Below, piece after piece: positions 10,524-36,508 of a stretch of 64,000 nt of DNA. A program made the position numbers and the translations under genes. Below the pieces are notes generated by a model, which searched no databases, was not told where the DNA came from, and saw nothing but the letters and a program-made list of their open reading frames with translations. Position 1 is the first letter of the stretch. Each line of letters begins with the position of its first letter. This stretch comes from Tyzzerella sp. An114 (GTDB taxonomy: Bacteria; Bacillota; Clostridia; Lachnospirales; Anaerotignaceae). The DNA is taken from contig NZ_NFLT01000003.1 of the NCBI RefSeq assembly GCF_002161055.1, forward strand, positions 62,001 through 126,000. Direction: 5' to 3'.

Positions 10524-10538
10524 TTGGAGGGATTTGTA

Positions 10539-11855
10539 TTGGATTTATTTGAATACAACAGACAAAAAAGTATGGAGAAGGAGTCTCCTTTAGCTTCAAG
10601 ATTGAGACCTAGAACTCTTGAGGAATTTTGTGGTCAAGAGCATATTGTGGGAAAAGGTTGTCTTTTGTATAGAGCTATAAAAGCTGACAGAATAAGTTCT
10701 GTAATATTTTATGGTCCACCAGGGACAGGAAAAACTACTTTGGCAAAAATAATTGCAAACACAACAAAAAGTATATTTACACAGCTTAATGCTACAACGT
10801 CAGGAACAAAAGACATTAAAGATGTTGTTGACAGGGCTAAATATGACATGGGAGCAACAGGACAAAGGACAATACTTTTTATTGATGAGATACACCGTTT
10901 CAATAAATCTCAACAGGACTCATTGCTTCCTCATGTAGAAGATGGAACAATTATACTTATAGGTGCAACAACTGAAAATCCATATTTTGAAGTTAATAAA
11001 GCTTTAGTATCTCGTTCCATTATATTTGAGCTTAAACCTCTTACAAAAAATGATATAAAGACAATAATAAAAAGGGCGTTGTATGACAAAGAAAGAGGAA
11101 TGGGGATTTATAACTGTGATATAACAGAGGAAGCCTTGGATTTTATGGCTGATGTATCAAATGGAGATGCAAGAACAGCTTTAAATGCCCTTGAATTGGC
11201 TGTACTTACAACAGAAAAAAATGATGATGATAAAATTCATATAGATATTAATATTGCACAGGAGTGCATACAGAAAAGGGCATTAAATTATGACAAAGAC
11301 GGTGACAATCACTATGATACAGTATCAGCTTTTATTAAAAGTATGAGAGGTTCTGACCCTGACGCAGCTATATATTATTTGGCTAAAATGATATATGCAG
11401 GAGAAGACCCTAAATTTATTGCAAGACGTATTGTTATATGTGCCTCGGAAGATGTGGGAAATGCTGACCCTCATGCTTTACAGGTGGCTGTATCGGCGGC
11501 ACAGGCTGTAAATTTTATAGGTATGCCGGAAAGTCGTATAATACTTGCTCAAGCTGTAACTTATATTGCCTGTGCACCAAAAAGCAATGCTTCATATTTG
11601 GCAATAGATAAGGCTTTGGAAGATGTTAAAAATGTAAGTATAAAAACTGTTCCACCTCATTTAAAAGATTGTCATTACAGCGGTTCTTCTGAATTAGGTC
11701 ATATAGGATATAAATATGCCCATGATTATCCGGGACACTATGTAAAACAGCAGTATTTACCTGATGAGCTTTTAGACAAAGTGTATTATGAGCCAACTGA
11801 AAATGGTATTGAAAGAAAGATAAAAGAGTCTTTAAAAAGACTTAGAGGAATTTGA
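10539..11855 (+). CDS. rarA: Replication-associated recombination protein RarA (MgsA)
   Basis: RarA is an AAA+ ATPase acting at stalled replication forks. The 438 residues show the N-terminal LASRLRPRTLEEFCGQEH, Walker A GPPGTGKTT, Walker B ILFIDEIHRFNKSQQD, sensor 1 IGATTENP, and the MgsA C-terminal region with ARRIVICASEDVGNADP and the CAPKSNASY segment. The start is TTG at 10539, because TTGGAGGG lies seven bases upstream. The C-terminal region also resembles the stand-alone protein at 32660-33268. It directly follows the HAD gene. Confidence 0.95.
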   Translation: MDLFEYNRQKSMEKESPLASRLRPRTLEEFCGQEHIVGKGCLLYRAIKADRISSVIFYGPPGTGKTTLAKIIANTTKSIFTQLNATTSGTKDIKDVVDRAKYDMGATGQRTILFIDEIHRFNKSQQDSLLPHVEDGTIILIGATTENPYFEVNKALVSRSIIFELKPLTKNDIKTIIKRALYDKERGMGIYNCDITEEALDFMADVSNGDARTALNALELAVLTTEKNDDDKIHIDINIAQECIQKRALNYDKDGDNHYDTVSAFIKSMRGSDPDAAIYYLAKMIYAGEDPKFIARRIVICASEDVGNADPHALQVAVSAAQAVNFIGMPESRIILAQAVTYIACAPKSNASYLAIDKALEDVKNVSIKTVPPHLKDCHYSGSSELGHIGYKYAHDYPGHYVKQQYLPDELLDKVYYEPTENGIERKIKESLKRLRGI

Positions 11856-28163: not shown

Positions 28164-28271
28164 AGTCTTTTAATTATAAATTAATTGTAACAAATAAATT
28201 TATAAATCATAGAATACTATTAGATAATGAGTTTTTGTACATGCATTATAAAAATATTATGGGGGTATTCT

Positions 28272-28478
28272 ATGATTAAAATTAATGTAAAATATAAAAA
28301 TCCATATTTTTGGATAGGTCTTTTAGGAGTTATATTTACAGCCATAGATGCAGACATTGAGATGTTCACGAATTGGCAAATTGTTATAGATAGTATAAAA
28401 AATGTTTTTAGTAATCCATATATGATTTTAAATATTATTATGGCCATTATAGGAGTTATAAATGACCCAACAAAATAA
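28272..28478 (+). CDS. Orphan phiLC3-type holin-like protein
   Basis: A 68-residue protein: MIKINVKYKNPYFWIGLLGVIFTAI, a short polar loop, then IVIDSIKNVFSNPYMILNIIMAIIGVINDPTK. Two hydrophobic segments, the KNP-FW start and the final NDPT motif match phage holins of the phiLC3 type, which make membrane holes for lysins. No lysin or other phage gene is near. It has its own terminator. It could be a phage relic or a domesticated holin. The ATG at 28272 is preceded by GGGGG; an upstream in-frame start has no ribosome site. Confidence 0.78.
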   Translation: MIKINVKYKNPYFWIGLLGVIFTAIDADIEMFTNWQIVIDSIKNVFSNPYMILNIIMAIIGVINDPTK

Positions 28479-28479
28479 T

Positions 28480-28512
28480 TAAAAAAGCAGCTATTTTATA
28501 TAGCTGCTTTTT
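28480..28512 (+). terminator. Terminator after the holin-like gene
   Basis: The stem AAAAAGCAGCTA/TAGCTGCTTTTT with a TTTTA loop is followed by T residues. Confidence 0.9.
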
Positions 28513-28667
28513 TATATATTTAAAATTTTAAAATATATATAAAACCTTTATTTTTAAAGCTTTTTTTGTATAAAAATGTGTGTCTAACATTGTGTGGTAA
28601 AAATATTACTATGTCTTATATCTATATTGTTTTACTCATTTTTCCTATTAGCTAGGCAATTCTTTAT

Positions 28668-28696
28668 TTGAAATTTTTATCAATAGATTTTAATAT
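28668..28696 (+). promoter_or_regulatory. Promoter of the PTS locus
   Basis: -35 TTGAAA (28668-28673) and -10 TAATAT (28691-28696) are separated by 17 bases, about 52 bases before the EIIC start codon. Confidence 0.58.
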
Positions 28697-28710
28697 ATAG
28701 CTATCAGTAG

Positions 28711-28722
28711 ATGACCGGTCAT
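28711..28722. promoter_or_regulatory. Perfect palindrome downstream of the PTS promoter
   Basis: ATGACCGGTCAT is a perfect 12-base palindrome, G+C-rich against an AT-rich background. It lies about 8-20 bases after the predicted transcription start of the PTS operon and before its ribosome site. This is a good position for an operator. The binding protein is unknown; the downstream PRD regulator is one candidate. Confidence 0.4.
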
Positions 28723-28747
28723 TGAAAATAGTATTAGGAGGGTACAA

Positions 28748-30022
28748 ATGAACACATCAAAATTACAAACATCTTTATCAAAATGGCTTATGCCGATAGC
28801 CAATAAGGTAGAGCAGCAAAAACATCTTCAGGCTATTAAAGACGGTATGATAGCAATTATCCCAATAATAATTTTAGGTTCAATATGTATATTGCCTATA
28901 GCTATTGCAAACCTTCTTGGTAGTGGTCCGGTGTATGATTTCATAACAAACAATATGAGTATTCTTACATATCCGGATAAATTTACAAATGGTTTATTAT
29001 CACTTTATGCTGCTTTCTTTATTGCAGATTCTTTGGGAAAAAGATATGGACTTAACACAGCACAGCTCGGAATTACAGCAGTAATAGTTCATGCAATATT
29101 AAGTGGTGTAATAATTGAAGGCGGTATCGGAAATCAGTATTTCGGTGCTGAAGGTCTTTTCACAAGTATAGTTTCTTCTATATTGACTGTTGAAGTAACT
29201 AGATTTATGATTAACAAAAAATTAGTAATAAAACTTCCAGATAGTGTTCCAGTTATGGTAGGAGAGAGTTTTAGTAGTCTTCTCCCATTAATAGTAAACG
29301 CTATTATAGCAACAATAATAGTTGCAATTACAGAAAAAGTAGCAGGAAAAGTATTTCCAGAGTTTATAATGAGTATACTTGCACCAGCTATAAAATCAAT
29401 GGATACATTACCAGCAGTTATGATAGTAATGCTTCTTACACAGCTTTTATGGTTCTTTGGACTTCATGGTCCAGCCATAACATCAGCAGTTTGGGCTCCT
29501 TTTGCAATACAGTATGCCGCTGAAAATATTGCAGCCTATACAGCAGGTCAGCCTGTAACACACTTCTTTACATTTGGACTTTATTATAACATGTTACAGG
29601 TTACAGGTTCTGGATTAACAATAGGTCTTGTAATACTTATGATTAAATCAAAAGCAAAAAGTTTAAGTGCAGTTGGAAAAGTTGGTATTATACCTTCATG
29701 TTTTGGAATTAATGAGCCTATAATATTTGGTGCTCCTATTATTCTTAATCCATTTATGTTTATACCTTTTGTATTTGGACCACTTGTAGTAACAATAATT
29801 ACATATTTTGCTATGACAAGCGGACTTGTTGGAATGCCAATAGCAAACCCACCAAGTTTCCTTCCACCAGGAGTTGGAGCTTTCATAATGACTCTTGATT
29901 GGAAATCAGTTGCACTTGTATTTGTAAACATTATTATTATGACAGTAATATATTATCCATTCTTCAAAGCTATGGAAGCAGATGAGTTGAAAAAAGAACA
30001 GGAATATGAATCAGCCATGTGA
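28748..30022 (+). CDS. PTS EIIC component, lactose/cellobiose family
   Basis: A 424-residue membrane permease of the PTS Lac family. The start KWLMPIANKVEQQKHLQAIKDGMIAIIPIIILGSICILP is typical of cellobiose EIIC. Other signatures are LLWFFGLHGPAITSAVWAPF, SGLTIGLVILMI and PSCFGINEPIIFGAPIILNPFMFIPF, the latter being the conserved substrate-site NEP region. It carries sugar through the membrane while EIIB phosphorylates it. EIIB and EIIA are separate genes downstream. The GH4 enzyme in the same locus suggests an alpha-linked disaccharide, unusual for this family. Confidence 0.95.
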   Translation: MNTSKLQTSLSKWLMPIANKVEQQKHLQAIKDGMIAIIPIIILGSICILPIAIANLLGSGPVYDFITNNMSILTYPDKFTNGLLSLYAAFFIADSLGKRYGLNTAQLGITAVIVHAILSGVIIEGGIGNQYFGAEGLFTSIVSSILTVEVTRFMINKKLVIKLPDSVPVMVGESFSSLLPLIVNAIIATIIVAITEKVAGKVFPEFIMSILAPAIKSMDTLPAVMIVMLLTQLLWFFGLHGPAITSAVWAPFAIQYAAENIAAYTAGQPVTHFFTFGLYYNMLQVTGSGLTIGLVILMIKSKAKSLSAVGKVGIIPSCFGINEPIIFGAPIILNPFMFIPFVFGPLVVTIITYFAMTSGLVGMPIANPPSFLPPGVGAFIMTLDWKSVALVFVNIIIMTVIYYPFFKAMEADELKKEQEYESAM

Positions 30023-30039
30023 TAAACAGGAGAATGCCT

Positions 30040-31974
30040 ATGTTTACTAAGAGACAATTAAAAATATTAGATTTGGTAGTTAAAAATTCAAACGGTGTTA
30101 CCGGAACGGCTATTGCTGATATTTTGAATGTATCTTCACGCACAGTAAGAAATGATATATCATCTATAAACAGTATGTTTAAGGATAAAAAGGTCAAAAT
30201 AAATTCTTCAAATAAAAAGGGATATTTTGTTGACTCTGACCATGTAGAATATATAAAAAACATAATAAATCTTCTCGAAAATAAAAATAATGACTATGTT
30301 GAAAGCGATGAAAGAATACTTAAAATTATGGGAAAGGTTTTCTTTCATGGAAAACAAAGCTTTTATGATATATCTGATGAACTTTATTTGTCAGAACAAA
30401 TGGTTTATAAAGAGTGTAACAAATTAAGAAAATTTTTAAATGAGAACTATGGTTATAATTATATAAAAATTTCAGGAGACTCTATACAAAATGAGTCTTC
30501 TGAAGAAATTATAAGACAGCTTTTTTTCAAAATGCTTAAAGACTCTGTATCGTCAAATAAAATGACATATAAAAAAGAACTTGAATATCTTCTGTGTGAA
30601 AATTTTATAGATGAGGATTTTGAAAATCTTTATAAAAAAATAAAAAGTTTTTTTGAAGTGCATAAAATAAGTGTTGATGATAAATCAATGGATATGATAG
30701 CAGGTTCAATATATATATGTGTTGCAAGAAATAATTGTGGCTTTACAGTAAGTGAAAAAAGTCCTATGAGAAGTTCATCAATAGCTGACTTGTTAATAGA
30801 CAAACTGGAAAACACTGGCTTTAATCTTACAGAAAACGATAAAGGTTGTCTTTATGATTTCCTCTGGTGTATAAAAATGCCAGATAGCATACTTGATTGT
30901 GAAGGGATTTCAAATACAGCTTTCAGTATAGTAAATGAATTCTGTACCAATGTAATGGAGAAATACAGTTTTGACCTTAAAGAGTCTAAAGATGTAATAA
31001 ATTATCTTTCTGTACATATTGAATATATGTTAAGAAGGCTTGATATGGGTTATGAGCTTAACAATCCTATGATAGATGATATAAAAAAGAAATATCCTCT
31101 TGCTTATGAAATTGCTATGCTTATTGTCCACACAATATATAAATATAAGAAAAAATATCCTGCTGATGATGAGATTTCTTATGTTGCAGTATACATAGAG
31201 TATTATCTTCAAATGAGTAATACAAAACTAAAAACAGTAATAATAAATGATAACAGTATGGGTGTTAATAATATAATAAGGAACTGGCTTGCAACTAATT
31301 TTTCAAATCAAATAGAAATTGTTGGTAATATACATATGCATTATCTTGAAAAGTATATGAAAGATAATGAAATTGACCTTATTGTATCACTTAGAGAAAT
31401 ACCTCAAAATATAACAACACCTTCTTATGTTATAGAAAACATTCCTTATAAAACAGATTACGACCTTTTAAATTCTCTTATACATAAAATTAAAATAAAT
31501 CATAGATATGAGAATATAACAAGGAGAATGTTCGATAAAAAGTTTATAAAATTCTACAATAATAATGAAAGTTTTGAAGACGTAATAAAAGATATGTCTT
31601 TAACTCTTGAAAAGAATAAAAGAATTGAAAGTGCTAAAAAGTTTAGTGACGATGTCATAGAACGTGAAAAAATCTATCCAACAGCTGTTGGAAGATATTT
31701 TGCAATACCTCACCCATTGGCTACATTTGCAAAACAAACTACTGTAAGTGTGGCCATGCTTGATAAACCTGTAATATGTGATGGCAGAGAAATGAAGATT
31801 ATATTTTTACTTGCAATAGAAAATAAAATTGATGATGATGTAAGTACGCTTTTTCAATTCTTTAAACAAATAGCATTAGATAAGAAGCTTTTTAAAAGCC
31901 TTCTCGATGTAAAAAACAAAGATGAATTTATGGAGAAAATGATATATATTTCAAAAAATATACAACTTCAATAA
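30040..31974 (+). CDS. PRD-containing PTS regulator (MtlR/LicR type)
   Basis: A 644-residue activator-type regulator. N-terminal helix-turn-helix (TGTAIADILNVSSRTVRNDI), a second helical DNA-binding part, two PRD regions, a remnant EIIB-like domain and a C-terminal EIIA (PTS_IIA_2) domain. PRD2 holds a histidine near residue 319; the EIIA domain has the phosphorylatable histidine in AIPHP near residue 551. Several usual sites are lost: PRD1 shows AGSIYICVAR and PRD2 ends VAVYIEYYLQ without histidine, and the EIIB-like loop reads INDNSMG where a cysteine is expected. The ATG at 30040 has AGGAGA at the right distance. Confidence 0.9.
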   Translation: MFTKRQLKILDLVVKNSNGVTGTAIADILNVSSRTVRNDISSINSMFKDKKVKINSSNKKGYFVDSDHVEYIKNIINLLENKNNDYVESDERILKIMGKVFFHGKQSFYDISDELYLSEQMVYKECNKLRKFLNENYGYNYIKISGDSIQNESSEEIIRQLFFKMLKDSVSSNKMTYKKELEYLLCENFIDEDFENLYKKIKSFFEVHKISVDDKSMDMIAGSIYICVARNNCGFTVSEKSPMRSSSIADLLIDKLENTGFNLTENDKGCLYDFLWCIKMPDSILDCEGISNTAFSIVNEFCTNVMEKYSFDLKESKDVINYLSVHIEYMLRRLDMGYELNNPMIDDIKKKYPLAYEIAMLIVHTIYKYKKKYPADDEISYVAVYIEYYLQMSNTKLKTVIINDNSMGVNNIIRNWLATNFSNQIEIVGNIHMHYLEKYMKDNEIDLIVSLREIPQNITTPSYVIENIPYKTDYDLLNSLIHKIKINHRYENITRRMFDKKFIKFYNNNESFEDVIKDMSLTLEKNKRIESAKKFSDDVIEREKIYPTAVGRYFAIPHPLATFAKQTTVSVAMLDKPVICDGREMKIIFLLAIENKIDDDVSTLFQFFKQIALDKKLFKSLLDVKNKDEFMEKMIYISKNIQLQ

Positions 31975-32005
31975 AAGATATATAAATTAAAGGGAGATGT
32001 CTAAT

Positions 32006-32299
32006 ATGAAAATTTTATTAGTTTGTAATGCAGGTATGTCAAGTTCTATATTAGTTAAAAAAATTAAAGAGGCAGGAGAAAAAAGAGGTCTTGACCTTAC
32101 TGTTGAAGCTAAGTCAAGCAACGGTGTTATGGCTGAGGTTGGAAAATGGGATGTATGTCTTGTAGGACCACAGATTATATATGCTGTTGAAACTATAAAA
32201 GCTACTCTTGGAATTCCTGTTCAGGCTGTTGAACCAAGAGTTTATGCTATGGCTGACGGTGACAAAGCTCTTGACCAAGCATTAAAAATGGCTCAGTAA
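32006..32299 (+). CDS. PTS EIIB component, lactose/cellobiose family
   Basis: A 97-residue soluble EIIB. MKILLVCNAGMSSSILVKKI has the phosphorylatable cysteine at residue 7. WDVCLVGPQIIYAVETIKA and GIPVQAVEPRVYAMADGDKAL complete the cellobiose-type fold. It takes phosphate from EIIA and passes it to the sugar in EIIC. The start ATG at 32006 follows AGGGAG; a start three codons upstream lies within that site. Confidence 0.95.
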   Translation: MKILLVCNAGMSSSILVKKIKEAGEKRGLDLTVEAKSSNGVMAEVGKWDVCLVGPQIIYAVETIKATLGIPVQAVEPRVYAMADGDKALDQALKMAQ

Positions 32300-32336
32300 T
32301 TTTAAAATCTGAGATAAAGAAAGTAGGTAAAAAGGT

Positions 32337-32657
32337 ATGGTGGATATTGAAAAAGTTTCCATGACAGCAATGGAAATAATAACATATGCAGGACTTGCAA
32401 AGTCAAATTACCTTATGGCATTAAAAGACTATAAGGCAGGAAAAAAAGATGAGGCTTTCAAAAAAATAGAGGAAGGTTCTGCCGAGTTTGCAAAAGCTCA
32501 TGAAGTACATAGTAAAGTATTAACTGATGAAATGGAAAAACTTGAACCACAAGTATGTTTGTTGCTTGTTCATGCAGAAGACCAGCTTATGGGAGCTGAA
32601 AGCATAAGATTACTTGTTGAAGAATTAATAGAATTATATGGAGAAAGGGAGAAATAA
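32337..32657 (+). CDS. PTS EIIA component, lactose/cellobiose family
   Basis: A 106-residue helical EIIA. The active-site histidine is H79 in CLLLVHAEDQLMGAESIRLLVEELIELY, the typical C-terminal helix. The N-terminal part is METYAGLAK-like (MEIITYAGLAKSNYLMAL). It accepts phosphate from HPr and forms a trimer in relatives. It sits 37 bases after EIIB and two bases before the RarA-C-like gene, in one operon. Confidence 0.95.
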   Translation: MVDIEKVSMTAMEIITYAGLAKSNYLMALKDYKAGKKDEAFKKIEEGSAEFAKAHEVHSKVLTDEMEKLEPQVCLLLVHAEDQLMGAESIRLLVEELIELYGEREK

Positions 32658-32659
32658 AA

Positions 32660-33268
32660 ATGGAAGTAAAATATAGTTTTTGGTCAGAAGTTAAAACAAG
32701 AAATGGATTTGCAGCAGATGAAATTATATCATCTTTACAGAAATCAATAAGAAGAAACATGGTTGAGGAAGCTTGTACATTCGCTTATGAATTATACATA
32801 TCATCACCACAGCTCTTAGAAAAAATGTGGAGAAGACTTCTTACAATATCTGTTGAAGACATTGGATTTGGAAATCTTGATGCAGCAGTACAGATTAATA
32901 CATTAAATGAAATGAGAAAGAATTTCCCATATGATGACGGAGACCAGCCAATGTATTTCATTCATGCAATTCGTGTTCTCTGTGCTAGTGATAAAGATAG
33001 GTCAAGTGATTACCTTAAAAATATAATTATAAAAGGGTTTGCAATGGGCAAAAAACCTGAAATACTTGACGTTGCTCTCGACAAACATACAAAGAGAGGA
33101 AAACTCATGGGTAGAGGTTCAAAACACTTCTTTGAAGAAGGAACAAAAGTTATACCACAGATTGAAGTTGACAACGATTATAGAGAAAGATACGGAAAAA
33201 TTCTTGAAGTATATAAACCAGAAGATGCTGTTGAAGGTGCATTCCAGTATAGTCAGGACCAGTATTAA
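32660..33268 (+). CDS. Stand-alone RarA/MgsA C-terminal-like protein
   Basis: A 202-residue cytoplasmic protein without P-loop. Its middle resembles the C-terminal region of RarA: LQKSIRRNMVEEACTFAYEL and MWRRLLTISVEDIGFGNLDAAVQI parallel KSMRGSDPDAAIYYLAKM and ARRIVICASEDVGNADPHALQV of the rarA product in this same window (10539-11855). Later come HAIRVLCASDKDRSSDYLK and a KLMGRGSKHFFEEG basic segment. Genes like this are often just called AAA family, though the ATPase part is absent. It lies two bases after the PTS EIIA gene and clearly belongs to the operon, but no role in sugar uptake is known to me. Confidence 0.7.
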   Translation: MEVKYSFWSEVKTRNGFAADEIISSLQKSIRRNMVEEACTFAYELYISSPQLLEKMWRRLLTISVEDIGFGNLDAAVQINTLNEMRKNFPYDDGDQPMYFIHAIRVLCASDKDRSSDYLKNIIIKGFAMGKKPEILDVALDKHTKRGKLMGRGSKHFFEEGTKVIPQIEVDNDYRERYGKILEVYKPEDAVEGAFQYSQDQY

Positions 33269-33355
33269 TTAATTGTTATATATAATATAGAAAATCTTTA
33301 CTTTAAGTTTAAGACTATAATTTAATAATATTAAATGAACTGCTTTTACATCTAA

Positions 33356-35346
<1,991 letters not shown>

Positions 35347-35368
35347 TAAAGTGTATCCCTAATTTTTT

Positions 35369-35416
35369 AAAATACCCTTGACTTGTATATATTTTACAGG
35401 ACAAGGGTATTTTTAA
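35369..35416 (+). terminator. Terminator of the PTS locus
   Basis: The eleven-base stem AAATACCCTTG/CAAGGGTATTT encloses a 21-base loop and is followed by T residues. Confidence 0.8.
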
Positions 35417-35447
35417 CAAATTTTTAAAATATGATAGTGTTATATAA

Positions 35448-35477
35448 TTGATTTATATAGTATAATTCTGTTATAAA
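35448..35477 (+). promoter_or_regulatory. Probable promoter of the ADP-ribosylglycohydrolase gene
   Basis: -35 TTGATT (35448-35453) and -10 TATAAA (35472-35477) are separated by 18 bases, 26 bases before the start codon. Confidence 0.45.
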
Positions 35478-35503
35478 TTAAATTTGAAGTGGGGGGAACA
35501 GAA

Positions 35504-36469
35504 ATGTATGATAGAATACTTAGCGGTATAATGGGTTTATGTATAGGTGATGCTGTTGGTGTTCCTGTGGAGTTTAAGAACAGAAAACTTTTAAAAAATG
35601 ACCCTGTAACAGATATGCGCTCTTATGGAACCCACAGTCAACCAAAAGGCACATGGTCTGATGACACTACAATGACTTTATGCCTTGCTGATAGTATTGG
35701 AGATATAGGTACTATTGATTTAAAAGACATTATGGATAGATTTGTACTTTGGGTAGAAAAAGGGGAATACACTGCTTATGATGAAGTTTTTGATATAGGA
35801 GTTGCCACAAGAAATGCAATTTTTAGATATTTAGATGGAAGCTCTCCTATTAATTGTGGTGGTAAAAATGAATATGATAATGGAAATGGAAGTCTTATGA
35901 GAATTCTTCCTTTGGCATTTTACATATATAAGAAATATGGAAATGACTTTTTTAAAAACGAATGGGCAGTAAAAGAAATTCACAATGTTTCTTCTTTAAC
36001 TCATAATCACCCTAGAAGTAAAATTTCATGTGGCATATATATTTCTGTGGCTGTAAGTTTGATAAGTAATAAAAGTATTGATAATATTCAAAATGCTATT
36101 AATAATGCTTTTGAATGGTATGAAAATAATGGTCATTTTTCAGATGAACTTGTTCATTTTAAAAGGCTGCATGATTTAGAAAGTTTTAAAAATCTATCTG
36201 AAGATAATATATCTAGTAGTGGTTATACAGTACATACTTTAGAAGCTTCATTATGGTGTCTTATGAACAGTAACAGTTATGAGGAAGCTGTTTTAAAGGC
36301 TGTAAATTTGGGAGATGATACAGACACAACAGGTGCTGTCACAGGAGGACTTGCAGGAATATTATATGGATATGATACTTTTCCAAAGGATTGGGTTGAA
36401 AGTATTCCAAAAAGTCAATGGATTAAAAATATATGTGTTAAATTTAATAATAGCATTATGTATGTTTGA
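35504..36469 (+). CDS. ADP-ribosylglycohydrolase family protein
   Basis: A 321-residue all-helical ARH-fold hydrolase. Motifs include SGIMGLCIGDAVGVPVEF, the metal-binding GTWSDDTTMTLCLADS and NLGDDTDTTGAVTGGLAG, which ligate the dinuclear magnesium site. Relatives remove ADP-ribose from proteins (such as DraG) or hydrolyse related N-glycosidic bonds. No ADP-ribosyltransferase or nitrogenase gene is near, so the substrate is open. The ATG at 35504 has GGGGGG just upstream; a GTG inside that run is rejected. Its codon use is as AT-rich as its neighbours. Confidence 0.92.
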   Translation: MYDRILSGIMGLCIGDAVGVPVEFKNRKLLKNDPVTDMRSYGTHSQPKGTWSDDTTMTLCLADSIGDIGTIDLKDIMDRFVLWVEKGEYTAYDEVFDIGVATRNAIFRYLDGSSPINCGGKNEYDNGNGSLMRILPLAFYIYKKYGNDFFKNEWAVKEIHNVSSLTHNHPRSKISCGIYISVAVSLISNKSIDNIQNAINNAFEWYENNGHFSDELVHFKRLHDLESFKNLSEDNISSSGYTVHTLEASLWCLMNSNSYEEAVLKAVNLGDDTDTTGAVTGGLAGILYGYDTFPKDWVESIPKSQWIKNICVKFNNSIMYV

Positions 36470-36474
36470 TATTT

Positions 36475-36508
36475 AAAACACACCTTTTTAGGTGTGTTTT
36501 ATTTTTTT
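36475..36508 (+). terminator. Terminator before spoVAC
   Basis: The stem AAAACACACC/GGTGTGTTTT with a T-rich loop is followed by a long T run. Confidence 0.88.

Follow-up and report, generated by a model that had tools for sequence, protein, structure and literature searches.

Results

Gene content of the operon

The window, by which we mean the whole 64,000-nucleotide stretch of Tyzzerella sp. An114 DNA that was analyzed, carries a sugar PTS operon on its forward strand. The following features are relevant here, and all of the hairpin and promoter-like entries are consensus matches only.

10524..11855, + strand, full-length RarA of the same genome, included for comparison
28480..28514, + strand, terminator-like hairpin 5′ of the EIIC gene
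28748..30022, + strand, EIIC of a PTS, lactose/cellobiose type; closest solved structure 3qnq (Pfam, NCBIfam, PDB)
29122-29150 and 31677-31692, weaker intragenic terminator-like hairpins
30019..31974, + strand, PRD-type transcriptional regulator with an EIIA_2 domain (Pfam, NCBIfam)
31997..32299, + strand, EIIB of a PTS, lactose/cellobiose type, EIIB_Lac (Pfam, NCBIfam)
32337..32657, + strand, EIIA of a PTS, lactose/cellobiose type, EIIA_Lac (Pfam)
32660..33268, + strand, stand-alone MgsA_C-like (RarA C-terminal-domain-like) protein, 202 aa (open reading frame, profile, predicted structure)
32738..32755, + strand, codons of residues 27-32, Q-K-S-I-R-R; in stand-alone groups Q27, K28 and R31 are invariant and R32 is kept at 0.99-1.00
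33080..33091, + strand, codons of residues 141-144, D-x-H-T; in stand-alone groups D141, H143 and T144 are kept at 0.93-1.00
33345..33373, + strand, promoter-like site (11/12) in the interval between the MgsA_C-like and GH4 genes
33404..34735, + strand, GH4 glycosidase, maltose-6′-phosphate glucosidase type; closest solved structure 1u8x (E value of 3.4e-199)
34732..35346, + strand, YczE/YitT-type membrane protein (Pfam, NCBIfam)
36474..36501, + strand, terminator-like hairpin 3′ of the operon region

The MgsA_C-like gene is preceded by a GGGAG-type ribosome-binding site and, as the earlier note on this DNA had described, encodes 202 residues and starts two bases after the EIIA gene, which ends at 32657. 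The sugar PTS context claimed in that note was likewise confirmed, with EIIC, PRD, EIIB_Lac and EIIA_Lac genes upstream and the GH4 gene downstream. Its statement that Walker motifs are absent also held: a pattern search found both Walker A and Walker B in the full RarA of the same genome and neither in the 202-aa protein. No PTS family was among the Pfam or NCBIfam matches of this protein. The rarA gene is not linked to the PTS operon and starts with a TTG at 10524; the position previously taken as its start, 10539, is a second TTG. It should be noted that the region holds 65 promoter-like sites compared with 50 (sd 6.6) in shuffled sequences, so a single such site means little. An ADP-ribosylglycohydrolase-family gene (35489-36469) lies between the PTS region and spoVAC/AD/AE-like genes, the latter recognized by eye; no relative of it was found in the 22 related PTS loci described below.

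Relationship to the C-terminal domain of RarA

A BLASTP comparison of the 202-aa protein with the RarA of its own genome was not significant (E value of 0.24), an NCBIfam scan gave no match, and the match to the Pfam family MgsA_C (PF12002) stayed below the cut-off of 27 (17.1 bits, E value of 0.0052). When nine relatives were scored against the same cut-off, the second copy at locus L007 and the copies at L024, L025, L026, L031, L032 and L130 passed (31.5-41.0), L201 scored 27.0, and L085 failed (19.4). Phmmer matched the 202-aa protein to the RarA C-terminal structure 2r9g with an E value of 1.8e-9, and a profile of 101 stand-alone sequences retrieved six PDB sequences, all of RarA type, with E values of 4.9e-20 to 1.5e-13. 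The predicted model (pLDDT 93.2, pTM 0.80) superimposed on 2r9g over 117 residues (15-135) with a Z score of 17.0 and an rmsd of 1.4 Å, and Foldseek searches of the PDB yielded 18 matches at an E value of ≤0.001 and 20 at <0.1, all of them RarA-type domains. The likeness to the RarA C-terminal region that the earlier note had read from a motif was therefore recovered by both profile comparison (4.9e-20) and predicted structure (Z score of 17.0), two of the checks proposed there. Motif resemblance alone would be insufficient, but because of the phmmer, profile and fold matches we firmly regard the 202-aa protein as a true homologue of the RarA/MgsA C-terminal domain that lacks the ATPase.

The RarA C-terminal fold is an oligomerization-type helical domain that makes subunit contacts. 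Its helical core, represented by the RarA/MgsA/WRNIP1 domain (PF12002; 2r9g, 3pvs, 8g28, 3bge, 3ctd), is common to residues 15-135 of the 202-aa protein, which, in contrast to RarA, has no AAA+ domain; in the best VIA rows, the aligned range stops at residue 135 or before. The clamp-loader collars (RFC, T4 gp44, E. coli DnaX) show a similar helical arrangement with Z scores of about 7 to 10.5, but they share only 7-13% identity over ~90 residues, and a Z score below ~13 in helical bundles may reflect nothing more than a common arrangement, since such bundles reach these values by chance. Beyond RarA and these collars, no convincing fold relative appeared among the matches listed, which does not by itself indicate a new fold.

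Signature residues and phylogeny

We aligned 9 PTS-type sequences, 92 other stand-alone sequences (91 from viral contigs and 1 from Hymenobacter) and 38 RarA sequences. Residues S24, K28, R31, R59, E66, D67, K112 and D141 (at least 0.95), as well as G16 (0.87-1.00) and G151 (at least 0.78), were kept in all groups; with the exception of G16, these are the positions that RarA can be said to share with the stand-alone family. A second set, consisting of T13, Q27 (0.18 in RarA), R32, E44, R114, D117, T144 and G147, was conserved to at least 0.93 among the stand-alone groups but is absent or rare in RarA, and it forms the family's own signature. The Q-K-S-I-R-R segment combines both sets, since K28 and R31 are common to RarA and the position of R32 is occupied there by G. 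Similarly, the position of T144 is Y in 0.95 of the RarA sequences. In terms of replacements from RarA to the stand-alone family, D13 became T, G32 became R, N114 became R and Y144 became T. The 202-aa protein has the marks of the stand-alone family, namely, a length of ~200 aa, no ATPase, and Q27, K28, R31, R32, R114, D141, H143, T144 and G147.

We built a quick maximum-likelihood tree from 79 rows, using roughly every other viral row and 10 RarA rows out of 38, with SH-aLRT values as the only support measure. It split the 10 RarA rows from the 69 stand-alone rows with a support of 100. The 18 bacterial operon copies formed one clade (100) nested in a group of 63 rows (96), and viral rows were also found outside this group; 33 of the 76 inner branches were unresolved. 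Because the bacterial clade is nested among viral rows when RarA serves as the outgroup, the tree favours a movement from phage to cell, in which the bacterial operon clade would have been taken from phages. The stem leading to the bacterial clade is long, at 1.14 changes per column. We also considered whether the gene is a RarA fragment or the product of a fusion break and rejected this, given that the gene stands alone in the relatives read and its clade is separate from RarA.

Genomic settings in bacteria

An exact-pattern scan of 84,980 genomes, itself incomplete, yielded 23 relatives, comprising 22 Bacillota copies at 71-89% identity and one Hymenobacter copy at 36% that sits among phage-type genes (a prophage, as judged by eye). 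PTS genes adjoin the gene in all 22 close Bacillota relatives; the linkage for which the earlier note had suggested a survey is thus conserved. An EIIC gene was detected in 21 of these loci, a PRD regulator in 21, EIIB in 20, EIIA in 20 and GH4 in 18, with short contigs among the misses. The MgsA_C-like gene directly follows EIIA in 20 of the 22 loci and, where EIIA is missing (two loci), lies beside the PRD gene. The position of the GH4 gene varies, being before EIIB in many loci and after the MgsA_C-like gene in others. The reading frame is open in the 22 close relatives, which belong to several genera (one frame is ended by the contig end), and the loci of two Holdemanella species carry tandem full-length copies. 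RarA was not among the 22 PTS loci, which were tested for the window's genes only. A role of the protein as a substitute for a PTS phosphocarrier was rejected because EIIA and EIIB are already present beside the gene in 20 of the 22 loci.

In Faecalibacillus, an RpiR-like/EIIC unit holds a second copy. The corresponding second layout, in which a divergent RpiR regulator is followed by the MgsA_C-like gene and EIIC, was present in 24 of the 24 loci examined, which came from an Enterococcus faecium plasmid, a Cetobacterium plasmid, 19 of the 29 matching genomes of the G775 family and 3 of 3 in the G928 family. No homologues of EIIA, EIIB, PRD or GH4 were found in any of these 24 loci. The E. faecium and Cetobacterium copies were among 18 plasmid records matched in a plasmid search, and likeness to the E. 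faecium copy suggests that the carriers in the G775 and G928 families are probably Enterococcaceae-like. Individual loci show irregularities. In E. faecium DO plasmid 3 (L025, 7239-11684), an IS110-family element splits the MgsA_C-like gene from EIIC and the regulator appears as two open reading frames; in L268, the MgsA_C-like gene and EIIC are ~350 bases apart; and in L236 (7918-9146), EIIC is present as two overlapping open reading frames, an apparent frame break or an assembly error.

Other bacterial settings involve different transporters. Genome G047 carries a nucleoside operon with genes for a LacI regulator, the MgsA_C-like protein, PNP, a Bmp-type binding protein, ABC components (by eye), DeoC and a PfkB kinase. 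In L031 and L032, the gene's neighbors are ABC solute-binding and permease genes, a kind that often carries sugars; the latter locus (MT838878.1), a faecal record of 4.8 kb labeled ‘Bacteriophage sp.’, looks bacterial rather than phage. Two distant relatives were found on plasmids, one in Bradyrhizobium near a TIR-domain gene (L027) and one in a haloarchaeon near nucleotide-sugar genes (L028). Judging from the latter sequence, which has 26% identity and a long branch, the stand-alone family may reach Archaea. By eye or annotation, no replication gene adjoins the MgsA_C-like gene in L007, L025, L026, L031, L032, L201, L235 and L236.

Phage members and their neighbors

A tblastn search with the 202-aa protein matched 67 phage records, of which some weak ones may be RarA; 56 belonged to Microbacterium phages, in which the copies are usually annotated as AAA-ATPase. 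The genes so labeled in phage records L029 and L030 encode 239 and 206 aa of RarA-tail type, and the label was probably carried over from RarA. Three viral scans, one of them restricted to the best 80 of 232 matches, gave 159 loci, several of which represent the same contig twice. An open reading frame of the stand-alone family (167-322 aa) was present in 158 of them; in the remaining one, the gene is a fragment at the end of the locus. When the faecal relative L032 was used for a viral scan, no match was obtained. Most of the members found come from phages, where a glycosyltransferase often accompanies them, which the earlier note could not have seen.

Two neighbors recur at the phage loci: a glycosyltransferase matching TAGT (PF20691) and phrog_842, often with the stand-alone gene downstream of it, and a ParB-like gene. 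In BLAST clusters of 127 non-identical loci, the TAGT-type gene occurred in 88 and the ParB-like gene in 72. With iterated profiles, the loci having TAGT within 4.5 kb numbered 82 of 103 at 90% non-redundancy and 42 of 56 at 60%, and those having ParB 81 of 103 and 42 of 56, respectively. Neither was detected in 22 of the 158 viral loci, some of which have short flanks. In phage Jayden, genes for a ParB-like protein, a glycosyltransferase and a UDP-glucose dehydrogenase lie just upstream of the copy; no annotated glycosyltransferase is near the copy of Arthrobacter phage Kitkat. In the reverse direction, a scan with the TAGT-type enzyme recovered 78 loci; the MgsA_C-like gene was present in 74 of them, always downstream and on the same strand, ParB in 73 and all three genes in 69. 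Judged by name, 46 of these 78 contigs had not appeared in the earlier scans, and the MgsA_C-like gene is carried by 42 of the 46. As the seeds were taken from MgsA_C-like loci, this result applies to that TAGT subfamily alone. A control viral scan seeded with terminase gave 2 loci only and was set aside. Ten window proteins were scanned (nine in 28227-36469, plus RarA), and neither TAGT nor ParB was among them.

Glycosylation of hydroxymethyl-bases is the obvious role of a TAGT. In PMC13216743, DNA-glucosyltransferases of any of three types are reported in 111 of 5388 RefSeq phages, and the T-even TAGT is described there as adding glucose onto already glucosylated hmC. In contrast to that T-even system, 40 chosen phage contigs of our set (32-193 kb; the longer ones, some of which may be fragments) contained no homologue of thymidylate synthase/hydroxymethylase in a search whose positive control was detected. 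For TET/JBP, the count was also 0 of the 40, but the control gave no match either, so that this result carries no information. Glycosylation of hydroxymethyl-pyrimidines in DNA by the phage gene set found no support in these phages, and because the hydroxymethylase homologue is missing from the 40 contigs, the shared sugar theme in phages rests on the glycosyltransferase alone. Structure searches additionally gave weak matches (E values of 3.0e-3 and 2.1e-2) to two giant-virus proteins that bear the name ‘putative glycosyltransferase’, the names being the sole basis.

The 202-aa protein matches phrog_16866 (unknown function) and phrog_33349 (‘ATPase’) with E values of 2.1e-11 and 8e-10, and all four viral members tested match both. 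In contrast to these phage families, it is bacterial and lies in a PTS operon, and as it has no Walker motif, the ‘ATPase’ label is misleading for it.

Frequency in genomes

In a sample of the phylum, the stand-alone gene was present in 2 of 398 genomes; the other 7 of 9 matches were RarA, with frames of 424-451 aa. The order and family samples gave 2 of 295 and 2 of 58 genomes, the order of G047 1 of 4 and the class of G139 2 of 398. The gene was commoner in the G775 (29/105) and G928 (3/18) families. Except in these two families, it is rare, and in the family and order samples it is patchy. Of 61 genomes sampled from the phylum, 58 have RarA itself, and the source genome is one of them.

Discussion

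To our knowledge, the MgsA_C domain has so far been known only from the C-terminal end of an ATPase that is widespread and acts at replication forks. Our results describe an apparently undescribed, large stand-alone family of this domain, mostly in phages and beside sugar-transferring enzymes. The fold itself is already known, and the phage copies fall within PHROG families that are of unknown function or labeled ATPase. The open-licence literature searched yielded no description of the stand-alone family, its operon linkage or the ParB/TAGT set; a prior mention is possible.

The bacterial settings have in common a sugar or nucleoside uptake system, followed by mostly phosphorylated sugars, and most phage settings have a glycosyltransferase in common. 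The sugar products of PTS, GH4, nucleoside phosphorylase, DeoC and ribokinase are mostly phosphorylated. Most economically, the protein would be read as one whose ligand or substrate is a (phospho)sugar moiety, and a RarA-type fold from DNA repair would then probably have a second job in sugar chemistry. Our candidate function, which we put forward tentatively as somewhat short of an even chance, is that of a soluble protein of phage origin, which would bind the imported sugar, in most cases a phosphorylated one, or convert it. The bacterial clade would have been acquired from phages, and the protein would act on the imported substrate after uptake. K28, R31, R32, R59, K112 and R114, together with E66, D67, D117, D141 and H143, would form a putative phosphate- and sugar-binding site. 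The substrate would be a phosphorylated sugar or glycoside, and the protein would catalyze an isomerase-, mutase- or hydrolase-like step or serve as an obligatory carrier.

Several observations argue for this sugar-ligand function. The genomic context tracks a class of substrate and not one transporter, since PTS, RpiR/EIIC, nucleoside and ABC loci are all represented; the position beside EIIA is kept (20/22) although gene order varies; and in phages, a TAGT-type glycosyltransferase tends to accompany the gene. Moreover, the invariant charged residues, several of which (R32, E44, R114, D117) set the stand-alone family apart, resemble a ligand site more than a scaffold. Other observations speak against it. 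All 20 Foldseek matches with an E value of <0.1 are of RarA type, with no known enzyme of this fold among them; many of the invariant residues are also conserved in RarA and may thus be structural; the bacterial contexts share no single sugar; and in phages, 22 of the 158 viral loci lack both TAGT and ParB, Kitkat lacks an annotated glycosyltransferase nearby, and the hydroxymethylase homologue is absent from the 40 contigs.

The main rival is a protein-binding adaptor or regulator that would bind EIIA, EIIB, EIIC or the PRD/RpiR regulator and tune uptake or induction. We consider this possible but distinctly the less likely account: the oligomerization-type fold of RarA, which resembles the clamp-loader collars, would suit it, as would the 24 second-layout loci where the gene stands beside EIIC and RpiR without the other PTS/GH4 genes tested for, but the nucleoside locus and the two ABC loci have no adjoining PTS gene, so that an EII partner would not be general. 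In addition, the PTS and nucleoside operons have dedicated regulators of their own (PRD, RpiR, LacI), which leaves less need for another transcription regulator, and in the alignment the invariant residues are largely charged. The recurrent ParB/TAGT/MgsA_C-like set in phages raises a further explanation, namely, that the protein is a partner of the TAGT-type enzyme in the modification of glycans or DNA (on DNA or protein) and that the bacterial clade has drifted, for instance, toward a permease chaperone. The long stem before this clade would agree with such drift, but conservation of the core signature on both sides of that stem argues that the function was retained, and the hydroxymethylase result also weighs against it; we judge it unlikely.

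The earlier note had left two interpretations side by side, a reuse of the fold for a metabolic or regulatory role and a coupling of sugar uptake to DNA replication. The former is well supported by the linkages in 22 of 22 PTS and 24 of 24 RpiR/EIIC loci and by the ABC and nucleoside loci. The latter, in which the protein would join or poison RarA tetramers, or bind clamp or SSB, when sugar arrives, found no support. The fold is indeed that of the RarA C-terminal domain, and RarA is nearly always available in the sampled genomes of the phylum, the source genome included, but the stand-alone clade is separate from RarA, its invariant residues differ and RarA-typical residues are replaced, the BLASTP match to the genome's own RarA is insignificant, and no replication gene adjoins in the bacterial loci read. 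We regard such a link as improbable. A functionless passenger or decaying phage remnant is more improbable still. Its patchiness in the family and order samples would fit this, but the 22 close relatives, spread over several genera, are 71-89% identical and have an open frame, and the linkage kept in all second-layout loci and the tandem full-length Holdemanella copies also stand against it.

The sugar-ligand function can be extended to the origin of the fold, and here our expectation is low, at roughly one chance in a handful. At its root, the RarA tail fold would be a phosphosugar- or nucleoside-sugar-binding or catalytic domain, which phages would keep as a glycosyltransferase partner and bacteria would have domesticated as a sugar-catabolism enzyme without structural precedent; RarA may retain part of the pocket. 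If true, this would point to an unsuspected ligand for RarA, a near-universal fork-repair ATPase. In PMC8735627, the molecular function of the RarA-type fork ATPase is still called obscure. More than 100 distinct phage stand-alone copies, most of them beside glycosyltransferases, together with the bacterial clade, provide an independent handle on the ligands of this fold. Collectively, our results mark an unannotated and repeatedly kept gene of bacterial sugar uptake in various gut bacteria, and a recurrent phage three-gene set (ParB/TAGT/MgsA_C-like).
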